From: a virus
DNA: 20,962 nucleotides
IMG/VR virus record: IMGVR_UViG_3300032238_000275
Span: 1 to 20,962 of that record
Reading direction: 5' to 3' (one strand)
In this document: positions 14,752 through 19,189 of the stretch, one piece after another
Numbering within the stretch: position 1 is the first letter of the stretch
Layout: every line of letters begins with the position of its first letter
Notes under the pieces: generated by a model
What the model saw: the letters and a program-made list of their open reading frames with translations, nothing else
What the model was told of the DNA's origin: nothing
Databases searched by the model: none
Position numbers and translations under genes: made by a program

Positions 14752-15155
14752 TAGAGATCCAGGGTGATAGTGCCGTTAGTGACAAAATCGCAACTCATCT
14801 TGGATACGTCATCGACTGCCGCGCTGTACGAGGCGTTGGTGATGATGCCATTAAAAACAATACGTTTTGTATCAGCCTGGGATAAATACAGCTCAAATAG
14901 GGCTGTTCCAGCGTCAGACGAGGTGTTGACGGCCTCGATAAAAGTGTTGTTGTCACCTGTGTAGATCAGGTTGACGGTGCCAGAGCCAGAGATCAGGCCG
15001 CCAACTTTTTTTGAGTAGGTGTCGTTGATTTGGGTGGTTTCGTACACCTGTTTTTCGACGCTCATGCTCCAGTCCGTGATTTGCACAAGGGTGGCAGCCG
15101 CGCCACCTGTGCTGTTGAATTTGACGGAGCCTTGATAGCCGTAGTAATAAGCCAT
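14751..15155 (-). CDS. Second tail-tube-fold protein, downstream of tape measure
   Basis: The product is 134 residues. Its pattern follows the second half of the major tail protein in this window: TDWSMSVEK matches RDWSFDISR, GSGTVNLIY matches GTGSCTVYM, GTALFELYL matches GAAFKLYTN, and RIVFNGIITNASYS matches SIALDAILTSASIS. It therefore looks like a tail-tube-fold protein lacking the N-terminal inserted domain. Because it lies between the tape measure and M-like genes, I infer that it forms a ring or tube-initiation layer at the distal end of the tail instead of the tube itself; this is not shown. The ATG sits in TAATG, whose TAA is in the third frame and not in the tape measure frame. The gene overlaps the 3' end of the tape measure frame by about 200 bases. 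Confidence 0.85.
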   Translation of the reverse strand: MAYYYGYQGSVKFNSTGGAAATLVQITDWSMSVEKQVYETTQINDTYSKKVGGLISGSGTVNLIYTGDNNTFIEAVNTSSDAGTALFELYLSQADTKRIVFNGIITNASYSAAVDDVSKMSCDFVTNGTITLDL

Positions 15156-17739
15156 TAGCGTCGGGTACAGCCAAGAGGCCGCCAGGGCGTTGTTGTTTTA
15201 CTAATTCTGCCTGAACTGCGGCAGAAACGACAACTCCGAGTTGTTTAGCCTGGGCCTGGTCGCCTTGAATATTGGAGTTGCCGCTGGCATCCACGTTAAC
15301 CACGACACTGGTGCTACCACCACCCCAAGCGTTGTTAGGAATCACAGTGCCACTGCGGCCAGGCATGAATAGTTCGGGGCCTTTTTCGCCCACAATGTAA
15401 GGAGTGTTAGCGGTAGCTGGACCGCCAGAGGCTAGATAACCTCCAAAATTATTATTTACTGAGAATTGACTAGAACCTAAACCACCTGCTCCACCGAATG
15501 CCCCTGAGTAATCGGGTGCTCCACCGGCTCCAAAAATACCTCCTGTAATGGGTAAAAACTTTTGAGCTAAACCAATAATTTGCATTTTTATATATTGTGT
15601 GATCATTTGCGCAGCCATGTCTGCAAAATTACTAGCAACACTCTGGAAGAAACCAGCGAGTGCTTCTTGCGCAGTCATAGAACCGTCAATCAACCCTTTA
15701 AATGAGTTACTAAATGCTGTACCAATACCTTCAGCTACTGTAATAACTTGATTAGCAGGATCTAGTAGTCTTTGTAGTTGTTGTTCAATTGCCCCGTATT
15801 CTTCACCAAGTTTTCCACCTGTTAAACCAGGCATTAGATTCATGTCAGTCCTAAATGTTCCAGTGCCTGAAGTTCCCATAAATCCAGCGGCTAGCGTTCC
15901 TTGGAACTTTTTACCAAGGACATCTGCTAGTCCGATTTGTGTGTACAAATCAGCAGTTTGTTTAGCAATAAGTTTTTGTTTGTCTTTTTCGTATTGATTA
16001 TTATCCGCTAAAATTGTACTTAGTTGAGCACTTGCTATTAACTCGCGTTCTTTTTGAGATAAAGCTGCTTTCTGCAGATCACGGAATTTAAGTCGGTGTT
16101 CCAAGGACACTCTGTTAAATTCAGCTTCTAGTGTTTCTTCTTCTGTCATAGATACTTGAATTTCTAAGCGTGCATTAGCTAGCTCGTTTAACTTATACGC
16201 ATCATCTAGTTGTTTTTTAGTTTGCTCAGCAAGACGCTTAGCTTCATTTGCAGCTTTGTTAGCAGCACTACTGCTTCCGCCAGTGGTAGGTGCTTGTCCC
16301 GGTGCTTCGATAGACCCAATTTTTGTAGGTTTAATTGATTTTTTCTGTTCTTCTTGCTGGAGTACATTTAGACGTGCCTGTTGAGCAGGTGTTAAGTATC
16401 TAGTACCAGTAGATGGACCTCCTTCAGCGGCTAGACGTTTACGTGCTCGTGCATTTGCTACAACTGTTTGAGCATTACCTCCGCTGAGTAATGTTGCTAC
16501 TGTTTGTATTCCTTGTGCAGCAGCGTTAATAATTACTGCTAACTGTTTGGCTAACCAGTTAAAAGCAGGAGTCAGCAATCGTACAATTGCGCTTGCTAGA
16601 TCACCTATCGCGGACATTAAACTTTTAATGCCCTTGTTAAATTGATCAAAGCCTGATACTGGTTTATTAACTGCTATTACGCCTTTATTGCCCATATCAA
16701 CTAAAGTATCTGTTAATTCTTGTGTTGAAATCTTGCCGTCTTTTGCCATTTTAAGGATGGCATCACGACTAACTTTGTATTTATCCGCTAAAGCTTGTTG
16801 AATTGGTATCCCTTGACTTGTTAGTTGATTTAATGTTGCTTGCGTAACTTTGCCAGACTCTAGTGCTGATGTAAATGCGTTAGTTACTTTATCAATTTGA
16901 CCGCCATACTTTTCAGTAAGTGTACTTACAAGATTTATAGCATCTGCTTGATCGTTAATAGATAGACTTAAACCTCGGATATTCTGTACAGCAAGACCAA
17001 ACTTATCAAACTCTGCTCCTGCCTGTTTGAACGCATCCGCAAGTAGTTTTGTTTGCTCTGTTGAGAATCCAATATCTGCTGCAAGCTCTTTGATTTGGCT
17101 ACCTTGACCTACTTTTTCACCGATAATTGTTCCGATCAGTGAACCCGCAAATCCCCCTGCTCCACCTAAAAATGAACCAGCAATACCGCCTAAAGCGCCG
17201 CCAGCTGCCGCTGCTCCACTTTGCCCAAATAGCAAGGGAAAAGCGCCACCGATTGCAGCGTTGCTAACTACGCCGCTGATACCTTTACCGATACCTGGTC
17301 CTGCTCTCTTTGGTGTTGTTGGAGGTAGAGCTGGACCAAACTGGCCGAAGCCCGCATTACGCATTGACGGTGGAACAGCCGGACCTTGCTGTCCAAATCC
17401 GGCATTCATTGTTGCTTGTACTCTGCGTCTATTTGCAATCTCTTGTTCAATTAAATAGTTTTGACGCGCACGAGCTGTATTGGCTTGTCCCAGGGCTGTT
17501 ACGTATTCACGTATTGCCTTGGTTTCTGCTTGTGAACCCATTATTACATTATCTATTGCTCTACTGGCTCTATTTAATTGATTTGTGTAGTTATCTAAAC
17601 TTTGTATTAAACCTCCGCGTGAAACTGCAATGCGATTTAAACTTTCAAATGCTGTTGTTGTTTGTGTAATAAGTGAACGTAACTGTTCAAGTTGGCGAGT
17701 GCCCCTTACGCCTATTTCAATATCGGCTCTGTAAGCCAC
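14953..17739 (-). CDS. Tape measure protein
   Basis: The frame encodes 928 residues. The N-terminus starts at GTG (VAYRADIEIGVRG). A helical region to about 110 is followed by a tandem NAGFGQxGPA repeat (112-139) and a Gly/Ala-rich hydrophobic stretch (about 150-208) likely to interact with membranes. A tape-measure core (about 225-375, LTSQGIPIQQALADKYKVS), a hydrophobic segment (380-420) and a coiled coil (495-600) come next. The last conserved part has the lambda H-type phrases GLIDGSMTAQEALAGFFQSV, PYIVGEKGPELFMPG and QRPGGLL (to about 857). The protein sets tail length and helps DNA entry; 857 residues at about 0.15 nm each would give a tail of about 130 nm. The final 71 residues are read inside the next gene in another frame and look like non-coding shadow. 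Most of the gene is AT-richer than its neighbours. Confidence 0.93.
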   Translation of the reverse strand: MAYRADIEIGVRGTRQLEQLRSLITQTTTAFESLNRIAVSRGGLIQSLDNYTNQLNRASRAIDNVIMGSQAETKAIREYVTALGQANTARARQNYLIEQEIANRRRVQATMNAGFGQQGPAVPPSMRNAGFGQFGPALPPTTPKRAGPGIGKGISGVVSNAAIGGAFPLLFGQSGAAAAGGALGGIAGSFLGGAGGFAGSLIGTIIGEKVGQGSQIKELAADIGFSTEQTKLLADAFKQAGAEFDKFGLAVQNIRGLSLSINDQADAINLVSTLTEKYGGQIDKVTNAFTSALESGKVTQATLNQLTSQGIPIQQALADKYKVSRDAILKMAKDGKISTQELTDTLVDMGNKGVIAVNKPVSGFDQFNKGIKSLMSAIGDLASAIVRLLTPAFNWLAKQLAVIINAAAQGIQTVATLLSGGNAQTVVANARARKRLAAEGGPSTGTRYLTPAQQARLNVLQQEEQKKSIKPTKIGSIEAPGQAPTTGGSSSAANKAANEAKRLAEQTKKQLDDAYKLNELANARLEIQVSMTEEETLEAEFNRVSLEHRLKFRDLQKAALSQKERELIASAQLSTILADNNQYEKDKQKLIAKQTADLYTQIGLADVLGKKFQGTLAAGFMGTSGTGTFRTDMNLMPGLTGGKLGEEYGAIEQQLQRLLDPANQVITVAEGIGTAFSNSFKGLIDGSMTAQEALAGFFQSVASNFADMAAQMITQYIKMQIIGLAQKFLPITGGIFGAGGAPDYSGAFGGAGGLGSSQFSVNNNFGGYLASGGPATANTPYIVGEKGPELFMPGRSGTVIPNNAWGGGSTSVVVNVDASGNSNIQGDQAQAKQLGVVVSAAVQAELVKQQRPGGLLAVPDANGLLLRLSRLRQIQQHRWRGCHPCANHGLEHERRKTGVRNHPNQRHLLKKSWRPDLWLWHRQPDLHR

Positions 17740-17773
17740 GGCGCCGCTACTATCTGGTACCTTAGTTTACCCA

Positions 17774-17801
17774 ATAAAAAGCCGCCGTGGTTAGCGGCGA
17801 C
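17774..17801 (-). terminator. Intrinsic terminator at the end of the G-T gene
   Basis: On the minus strand GTCGCCG (17801-17795) pairs with CGGCGGC (17787-17781) around a seven-base loop, followed directly by TTTTTATT. The stem has one G-T pair. The G-T stop codon (17793-17791) falls in the loop, so ribosomes finishing G-T could affect folding. It lies just before the tape measure gene, which would then depend on read-through or its own promoter. Confidence 0.75.
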
Positions 17802-18323
17802 GTTTTGCCTGTTCGATTGCCTTTTCTTGGTCTTCGTTCAGGATGCAAAAATAAGCGCTCCAACCGAGGAGTTCTTCGGCTGTCATCGTGGACCGGACTT
17901 CGGAAAGGGTTAGGCCCAGCTCCTTGGCAACGCCAAATTGGAGCATGAGCCAGCTGTCCTTACGGAGTTCGGCGCTTAGGATTTTGGGTCGATGGGCTCG
18001 CTATCGTCAGTCAAGATTGCCAGCATCAACGACTGCAGATCGCGGTCCTTGACTTCGTTCTTGAGAACATCGATTTCACCAGTGCTGAATAGCTTGGCGC
18101 CGTTTTCGTCGCAAGCTTTCTGAATCAGAAGCTGCAATGCAAACGCATTGGCGTCATCGGACTTGGCGTTTTTCTGGGCGCGTTCACGCTCAGCCATGGT
18201 AAGTGGTGCCATCCACATTTCAAAAATGCTGCCATCACTTAGCTCGACCTCTTTTTTAGTAGGTTCTAGGTTGGCGGCTTTACGTAGACGGTCGATTGCG
18301 CGAACCGGAATCGAAGCGGGCAT
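17791..18323 (-). CDS. G-T type tail assembly chaperone (-1 frameshift product)
   Basis: A second product is predicted from the G start, with a -1 slip at CCCAAAA (17982-17988). The ribosome would read through Lys114 of G, then continue in the -1 frame with ILSAELRKDSW, LQFGVAKELGLTLSEV and MTAEELLGWSAYFCILNEDQ, ending QAKRRR before TAA at 17793-17791. The fusion has 177 residues. The -1 frame stays open exactly from the slip to that stop, and its TAEELLGWSAYF phrase is a family hallmark of T-domain sequences, so it is coding. In lambda the G-T protein binds the tape measure through G and recruits tube subunits through T; it does not stay in the virion. The segment has no start codon of its own at a sensible place. 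Confidence 0.92.
17976..18323 (-). CDS. G-type tail assembly chaperone
   Basis: The product is 115 residues, mainly helical after a short beta start (EVELSDGSIFEMWMAPLTMAERERAQKNA). Residues 55-113 are helices (DANAFALQLLIQKACDENG, LFSTGEIDVLKNEVKDRD, LQSLMLAILTDD), ending SEPIDPKS. This helical arrangement and its place between the major tail protein and the tape measure identify it as the lambda gpG equivalent, which coats the tape measure during tail assembly. It is made in excess of the G-T fusion because slipping is infrequent. The start is ATG with no evident Shine-Dalgarno sequence, and the cistron lies between two terminators. Confidence 0.92.
   Translation of the reverse strand: MPASIPVRAIDRLRKAANLEPTKKEVELSDGSIFEMWMAPLTMAERERAQKNAKSDDANAFALQLLIQKACDENGAKLFSTGEIDVLKNEVKDRDLQSLMLAILTDDSEPIDPKS
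17982..17988 (-). promoter_or_regulatory. Slippery heptamer for -1 programmed frameshift
   Basis: On the minus strand the zero-frame codons are GAC CCA AAA TCC TAA. The heptamer C CCA AAA fits the X XXY YYZ rule with the P- and A-site codons CCA and AAA slipping to CCC and AAA. It lies one codon before the G stop (17978-17976). A pairing of AGCGCC with GGCGTT about 40 bases further on might stimulate slipping but is speculative. Confidence 0.9.
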
Positions 18324-18365
18324 ACACTTGTCGGGGGTGTTGTTTTACTGTAGCGCAATAGCCAT

Positions 18366-18394
18366 AAAAAAGCCCCAGCGGTGAGGCTGGGGCT
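18366..18394 (-). terminator. Strong intrinsic terminator after the major tail gene
   Basis: On the minus strand AGCCCCAGC (18394-18386) pairs perfectly with GCTGGGGCT (18379-18371) around a six-base loop and leads straight into a run of T. It lies about 20 bases beyond the major tail protein stop and about 45 bases before the G start, so most transcripts should end here. Confidence 0.88.
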
Positions 18395-18415
18395 CAGTTC
18401 CCGACTGTCTGATTA

Positions 18416-19189
18416 TCAGGCAGTGGTCAGGAAGTCGAAGGTGGGGGTGGATGCGGGGCGGAAGTTGATCGCAATGGTCTGAGCGTTGTCAGGATCCACC
18501 GAGATGGAGGCGCTGGTCAAGATTGCGTCGAGAGCAATCGAGCGGCTCTTGGTGTCATCAACAGTGGTGCCGCTACTGATAATGCGGTTGGTGTAGAGCT
18601 TGAAGGCTGCACCACCCTGTTGACGTTGGAGCACGTCCTCAATCATGCGGTTGGCGATTGCAAAATCGTCGTCCGACATGTAAACCGTGCAAGAACCAGT
18701 GCCATCACCAAAACCGGCGATGTAGTTCTTGAAGGGGACGTACTGACCAGGGGTTTGACCGATTGTGGTGACGTCGATTTCAGCGCGGCTGATGTCGAAG
18801 CTCCAGTCGCGTGTTTGACCGACAACAACATAGTCAGAATAGTAAGCCTCAAATTTGTTGGGGCTTACGGCAGTACCTTGGGTGGTGATCGTGATGACGG
18901 AACCGCCGAGGGTGGCGGAAACAGTCAGAGCACCAGTCGCTGCGTTGTAGCCGATAACGTAGTAGACCGTGCCAGCCGTGATGCCAGAGGGCAGGGTACC
19001 AGTAGCGGTGCCGCCAGCTTGGTTGACGACGCGGAATTTGACAGGATCGCCTACTTTGAAGTTGAAGTAGGAGCCGACGTTCAGGATGGCACCAGCAACG
19101 GTGACGTCAGCGGGAGCAAAACTGGCGGTCGTACCAGCGGGCTTGTAGTACAGGGCGCCGGACGTGCCGGACAGAACAGTAGTGGCCAT
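18416..19189 (-). CDS. Major tail (tube) protein with inserted beta domain
   Basis: The product is 257 residues. Residues 1-21 and about 113-257 form the tube fold: FEAYYSDYVVVGQTRDWSFDISRAEIDVTTIGQTPGQYVPFKNY, GTGSCTVYMSDD, GGAAFKLYTN and SIALDAILTSASISVD. Residues about 22-112 are an inserted beta domain of a kind seen in many phage structural proteins (VGDPVKFRVVNQAGG, LPSGITAGTVYYVIGYNAATGALTVSATLGG). Insertions in tube proteins generally project outward and may touch the host or surroundings; that is inference here. The subunit forms the tail tube and should be the most abundant tail protein. A leader with stem-loops precedes the gene and a strong terminator follows it. Confidence 0.92.
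   Translation of the reverse strand: MATTVLSGTSGALYYKPAGTTASFAPADVTVAGAILNVGSYFNFKVGDPVKFRVVNQAGGTATGTLPSGITAGTVYYVIGYNAATGALTVSATLGGSVITITTQGTAVSPNKFEAYYSDYVVVGQTRDWSFDISRAEIDVTTIGQTPGQYVPFKNYIAGFGDGTGSCTVYMSDDDFAIANRMIEDVLQRQQGGAAFKLYTNRIISSGTTVDDTKSRSIALDAILTSASISVDPDNAQTIAINFRPASTPTFDFLTTA

Follow-up and report, generated by a model that had tools for sequence, protein, structure and literature searches.

The question raised by the tail gene locus of this cyanophage-like virus is whether its structural proteins are supplied from one transcript or from several. The tail genes of siphophages are commonly regarded as a single late operon in which protein ratios are adjusted by translation and frameshifting. 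In phage lambda, the tail genes are carried on one late transcript and their ratios are set by translation. The DNA analysed here, referred to as the window, is a 20,962-base virus record that has its tail genes on the minus strand in the order tail terminator, major tail, G, -1 extension and tape measure (Table 1). An initial annotation of this DNA proposed that two terminators flank the chaperone gene G/G-T, one after the major tail gene (T1) and one at the G-T stop (T2), and that they create falling steps of expression along a single operon. Our analysis bears out both terminators. However, each is followed, 11-18 nt past its stem, by a conserved TANANT hexamer that had been overlooked (P1 and P2, respectively). 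We consider it quite probable that the tail region constitutes a relay of terminator-promoter pairs that would give separate transcription units rather than one fading operon.

Table 1. Positions of the tail genes and of the predicted transcription signals in the window
Feature	Position	Strand	Description
Tail terminator gene		-	phrog_179
Major tail protein gene	18416..19189	-	ORF between the tail terminator and chaperone genes; phrog_1407 major tail protein, E 0.0027 (weak match)
T1, predicted intrinsic terminator	18366..18395	-	10-bp stem 18395-18370; T-run 18371-18366 (six T)
P1, -10-like hexamer	18347..18352	-	TACAGT within conserved block CTATTGCGCTACAGTA; 29 nt before G ATG; no -35 consensus
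G, tail assembly chaperone short form	17976..18323	-	115 aa; phrog_344 tail assembly chaperone, E 2e-5; phrog_20784, E 7e-34
Slippery heptamer for -1 frameshift	17982..17988	-	C CCA AAA, just 5' of the G stop; from sequence
T part of G-T	17791..17979	-	-1 frame, to TAA 17793-17791; 185-nt extension in near relatives; phrog_337 and phrog_14766 tail protein
T2, predicted intrinsic terminator	17776..17801	-	Over the G-T stop; 7-bp stem 17801-17781; T5 17780-17776
P2, -10-like hexamer	17764..17769	-	TAAACT; 30 nt before tape measure GTG
Tape measure protein gene	14953..17739	-	GTG start 17739; phrog_1538 tail length tape measure protein, E 2.5e-16

Identification of the chaperone came from PHROGs; a Pfam search of G and T returned no matches. 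G/G-T combines a -1 overlapping ORF, a slippery heptamer and a PHROG relation to tail assembly chaperones, and on these features it can be classed as a lambda-type frameshifted tail assembly chaperone, in agreement with the initial annotation. The likeness to lambda lies in the order major tail, G, G-T and tape measure, in the heptamer just before the G stop and in the PHROG match, while the difference lies in the terminators and promoter-like elements found here between tail cistrons. The -1 extension is exactly 185 nt long in every near relative that reaches the G-T end, which matches the earlier estimate that ribosomes translating only G stop about 180 bases before those that frameshift. 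Near relatives carry CCCAAAA, CCCAAAG or CCCCAAG as the heptamer, and distant relatives carry AAAAAAC and others. Additionally, there is a set of relatives (L139-L141, L145, L162, L163, L166, L172, L174, L177-L180 and L182) with no open -1 frame across the T part. Their G has a conserved ATGAAAAGCNNTAAAGGCTGA-like motif at its end, and it is a +1 or -2 shift that fits the frame downstream. This family may therefore have switched its direction of frameshifting.

Among cultured phages the nearest match is to KBS-S-2A, a phage of Synechococcus WH7803, and by this relationship the host of the window would be a picocyanobacterium. A scan of genome contigs for a host gave a single match, to a metagenome bin labelled Gammaproteobacteria, which is not informative. 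At the far end of the tail region, the tape measure ORF overruns by about 200 nt (15155-14953, minus strand) into the next gene, which is in another frame. The tape measure ORF of a close relative, G003 (L088, 16947), ends where the next gene starts, and just before that point the window is one base shorter than G003. Either an error in sequencing or assembly or genuine variation may account for the missing base, and the true end of the tape measure gene is probably near 15155. The gene directly after it (15155-14751, minus strand) is a second one that matches major tail proteins (phrog_10528, E 9e-16), with relatives in several other contigs.

T1 folds as RNA with a minimum free energy of -20.0 kcal/mol (z -4.4), and none of 200 shuffled sequences folds as well. 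It is present in all 80 near loci that have the flank, KBS-S-2A included, where it occurs in 39 distinct versions. Among 25 distinct sequences four pairs have changed on both sides, giving 15 two-sided cells versus 4.0 in shuffles (none of 500 reached this count), and pairing falls when the pairing partner is slid along the alignment. T1 is thus a GC-rich hairpin with a U-tract at a gene end that is stabler than chance and has undergone compensatory change, as is typical of an intrinsic terminator. We also analysed 80 more distant relatives that contain 61 distinct T1-type junctions and 55 distinct G-T ends, and T1 occurs in 46 of these 61 junctions. Cyanophage S-2L has a related chaperone, but there 4 nt separate the major tail gene from G and T1 is absent. 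Our best reading is that T1 would be an old insulator and that its pairing with P1 would be old as well.

T2 likewise consists of a GC-rich hairpin followed by a U-tract, with a minimum free energy of -12.0 kcal/mol (z -2.6; equalled or bettered by 3 of 200 shuffles). Its 5' arm is formed by the last G-T codons, CGT CGC CGC, and its loop contains the stop codon, so that the overlap of the terminator with the coding end described in the initial annotation is confirmed. T2 occurs in 53 of the 55 distinct junctions of the near clade and in none of the 55 distinct distant G-T ends. It is also missing from KBS-S-2A, where G-T ends CGG CGG CGG TAA ACT. Conservation of both hairpins in relatives, which had been suggested as a check, therefore reaches distant relatives for T1 and only the near clade for T2. 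The T2 stem is nearly invariant with no two-sided change seen, and its conservation could come in part from relatedness and coding. Where the last three G-T residues are arginine, 89-98% of near-clade sequences use CGC (95-98% at codons -3 and -2), as compared to 54% for the most common codon at two other well-conserved arginines of the extension. This bias supports selection on the hairpin without proving it. T2 was probably gained in the clade of the window as a clade-specific insulator.

Under a strict rule T1 and T2 are the only terminators in the window, and each is located at a gene end. Looser terminator-like matches number 26 versus 21.5 expected by chance (sd 5.1) and are not enriched. 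Window-wide enrichment was consequently rejected as a line of evidence, with only the strict class and conservation being informative. The reality of T1 and T2 is settled by their conservation (80/80 and 53/55) and not by the number of matches in the window.

The position of T2 over the G-T end had led to the proposal that the rate of frameshifting influences read-through into the tape measure gene, with ribosomes translating G-T covering the 5' arm of T2. The geometry fits this proposal, as the G-T stop is in the T2 loop while G-only ribosomes stop well upstream, and the overlap is kept in every relative that bears T2. However, both KBS-S-2A and the 55 distant G-T ends lack T2 even though the frameshift overlap is kept, so conservation of the terminator overlap does not go along with that of the frameshift as it should for a translation-coupled attenuator. 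Moreover, any effect would be limited to the frameshifting minority of ribosomes, and among these to ribosomes that follow the polymerase closely, while P2 provides a candidate promoter for the tape measure gene, with a start after T2. There is also a simpler origin for the overlap, since a GC-rich arm is already provided by the arginine codons CGC CGC CGC, and relatives without the hairpin have an arginine-rich tail too. Frameshift-coupled read-through as the main control is unsupported given that T2 is absent where the overlap is kept, and we judge such attenuation to be highly improbable.

The hexamers that follow the terminators are strongly conserved. The core of the P1 block, TACA.TA, is invariant in 25 distinct relatives, and TANANT is present at all 50 distinct near T1 junctions. 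The P2 core, TA.A.T, is invariant in 19 aligned relatives (alignment A3), and in 76 of the 80 loci of the near clade the hexamer follows the G-T stop at offset +23 to +25. P2 is retained even where the N-terminus of the tape measure protein has been replaced by an unrelated one. Both elements thus have the A2 and T6 expected of a -10 element, lie at a constant distance from a gene start and are conserved. There is no conserved TTGACA-like block 16-18 nt upstream of P1 or P2, and a consensus sigma-70 scan does not list either element because they lack a -35, which makes that scan no guide here. The missing -35 weakens the case for a classic sigma-70 promoter but not for a cyanobacterial one, since cyanobacterial promoters often have no -35; promoter mapping in Synechococcus elongatus gave Ta-aaT as the -10 motif, while a -35 motif could not be detected (PMC3219970). 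The phage elements share with those promoters a Ta-aaT-like hexamer and the lack of a detectable -35, and differ from them in having the core TA[ACG]A[CGT]T and in often sharing bases with the stop codon of the phage gene before them. We infer that P1 and P2 are -10-only promoters read by the sigma factor of a cyanobacterial host. As each is a short hexamer alone, they are to be taken as predicted promoters. A further TAAACT occurs at 7295-7290 (minus strand), 26 nt before the gene at 7269-6130 (MANRKITDL...), without a terminator.

Comparison with the distant relatives indicates how the hexamer and the terminators relate to each other. TANANT is present in 41 of the 61 distinct T1-type junctions, and 15 more have the looser form TANNNT. 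Taken with the terminator, 30 junctions have T1 and TANANT, 15 have T1 and TANNNT, 11 have the hexamer without T1, and a single one has T1 with neither form of the hexamer. At the G-T end, the stop codon itself starts the hexamer (TAAACT, TAGACT, TAAAGT or TAGAAT) in 46 of the 55 distinct distant cases, all of them without T2, whereas a stop-formed TA[AG]A[ACG]T is found at a background of 18 of 569 genes. KBS-S-2A keeps TAAACT at its G-T stop despite having no T2, and its hexamer before G reads TAAAGT. In the clade of the window, the P2 hexamer is located 23-25 nt past the stop rather than overlapping it. The stop codon of the preceding gene also forms a hexamer (for example TAG ACT) before the major tail gene in many distant relatives. 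Since the hexamer is kept where T2 or T1 is absent, it is the more constant and probably the older element.

The hexamer is not confined to the tail genes. In 10 of 10 genomes or contigs, the interval 24-40 nt ahead of start codons holds an excess of TA[ACG]A[CG]T (p 0.014 to 3e-10) when compared with nine others around the same starts. The starts in this comparison are longest-ORF calls, as are the gene calls outside KBS-S-2A in general, and they add noise. The deposited KBS-S-2A annotation gives the same hexamer peak before starts. Furthermore, the KBS-S-2A terminators that precede the portal gene and gene 5663 have a hexamer just downstream, with a chance of 3-5% per segment. These distributions bear on a different explanation, in which the hairpins serve mainly as 3' ends that shield the major tail and G/G-T messages against exonucleases, with the conserved blocks being processing sites or sites bound by a phage regulator. 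Hairpins at mRNA 3' ends are often stabilising, and the near-clade P1 block, TAnTsCGyTACAnTA, is more conserved than a plain -10 needs. However, the core common to P1, P2 and other gene starts is TANANT only, on both strands and 24-40 nt before starts as a -10 predicts, and the upstream TAnTsCG is not common to distant relatives. We regard this explanation as quite improbable.

If the hexamers are -10 elements, they could be read by a phage-encoded sigma factor and not by that of the host. KBS-S-2A does encode an RpoD-like sigma factor, CPKG_00011 (L082, 7779-8708, minus strand; PMC3751600). However, 15 other contigs of 27-45 kb with the same elements, which may be incomplete, have no Sigma70_r2 match. 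A phage sigma factor as the general reader was rejected with KBS-S-2A as its only carrier among 16 records, and we hold this variant of the relay to be rather unlikely.

The sequences themselves thus display two hairpins, their conservation, the covariation of T1, and a hexamer that is fixed in position and conserved even without T2. On this basis, RNA polymerase coming from the major tail gene would be released at T1, after which a new polymerase would start at P1, with the start expected near 18340 and a leader of about 17 nt. G/G-T would form its own transcript of about 560 nt with release at T2, and another polymerase would start at P2, near 17757, to transcribe the tape measure gene behind a leader of about 18 nt. 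Dose would then be set separately for each cistron. That the hairpins actually terminate transcription is likewise predicted from their structure and conservation. Cyanobacteria lack Rho (PMC13289151, PMC3219970), so the 185 nt past the G stop, which most ribosomes leave untranslated, should cause no Rho-dependent polarity, and hairpins would therefore be a natural means of ending these transcripts.

The stepped expression proposed initially would instead have one long late transcript on which T1 and T2 act as partial terminators that step down expression from major tail to chaperone to tape measure. Both terminators are genuine and conserved, and the order of the steps is that in which siphophage tail copy numbers fall, with major tail exceeding chaperone and chaperone exceeding tape measure. 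There is also a precedent in the phycocyanin (cpc) operon of Synechococcus elongatus, where a partial terminator between co-oriented genes sets subunit stoichiometry (PMC3219970). However, the downstream genes of the cpc operon need read-through, whereas here a promoter-like element follows the terminator. What is not supported in the stepped scheme is that the downstream genes live on residual read-through only, as a conserved -10-like element is found directly past each terminator. The absence of T2 from all 55 distinct distant G-T ends further indicates that a step here is not generally required. The initial annotation named a strong promoter mapped within 17740-17775 as a finding that would refute the steps. 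The predicted P2 (17769-17764) is inside this interval and, being a predicted promoter, argues strongly against the steps without disproving them. Stepping along a single transcript is in our estimation unlikely, although, by analogy with the phycocyanin operon (PMC3219970), the new promoters of the relay could still be supplemented by a step from partial termination at T1 and T2.

Hairpin terminators, -10-only promoters and frameshifted chaperones are each already known. A literature search turned up no description of the present terminators or promoters or of the way they are arranged, nor did we find transcript maps for uncultured cyanophages in the literature. T1 and T2 resemble other cyanobacterial and phage intrinsic terminators in being GC-rich hairpins with a T-run at gene ends in hosts without Rho (PMC13289151, PMC3219970). 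They differ in having a -10-like element within about 11-18 nt and, for T2, in being placed over a coding end that is reached only by frameshifted ribosomes. With its own predicted promoter and terminator, G/G-T is also reminiscent of a phage moron cassette; predicted autonomous genes of the moron kind, together with predicted promoters, terminators and sigma factors, have been described for cyanosiphovirus P-SS2 (PMC2784084). In contrast to a moron, G/G-T belongs to the core structural genes and keeps a fixed position, and is not an inserted extra.

A relay of this type would mean that abundant cyanobacterial viruses set their tail protein ratios via separate transcription starts, and it would supply a simple motif for promoter mapping in uncultured cyanophages. 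We see about an even chance that the arrangement is broader still, with major tail, chaperone and tape measure genes each having their own -10-only promoter across a large group of cyanophage-like siphoviruses. Under this wider reading, the promoters would often be formed by the preceding stop codon (TAG ACT, TAA ACT), terminators would have been added as insulators, and the proportions of tail proteins would be set by independent transcription starts instead of by one late operon and translation. What counts against the relay is that the near clade has no TANANT close upstream of the major tail gene, though a long conserved block is present there. At about 19260-19190 (minus strand), near relatives share with the window a GGCGCTAACCTGTATTAAGCCGGGCAGTGCCCG-like block and a small hairpin, CGGGC AGT GCCCG, which may represent another promoter and a leader stem-loop for the major tail gene.
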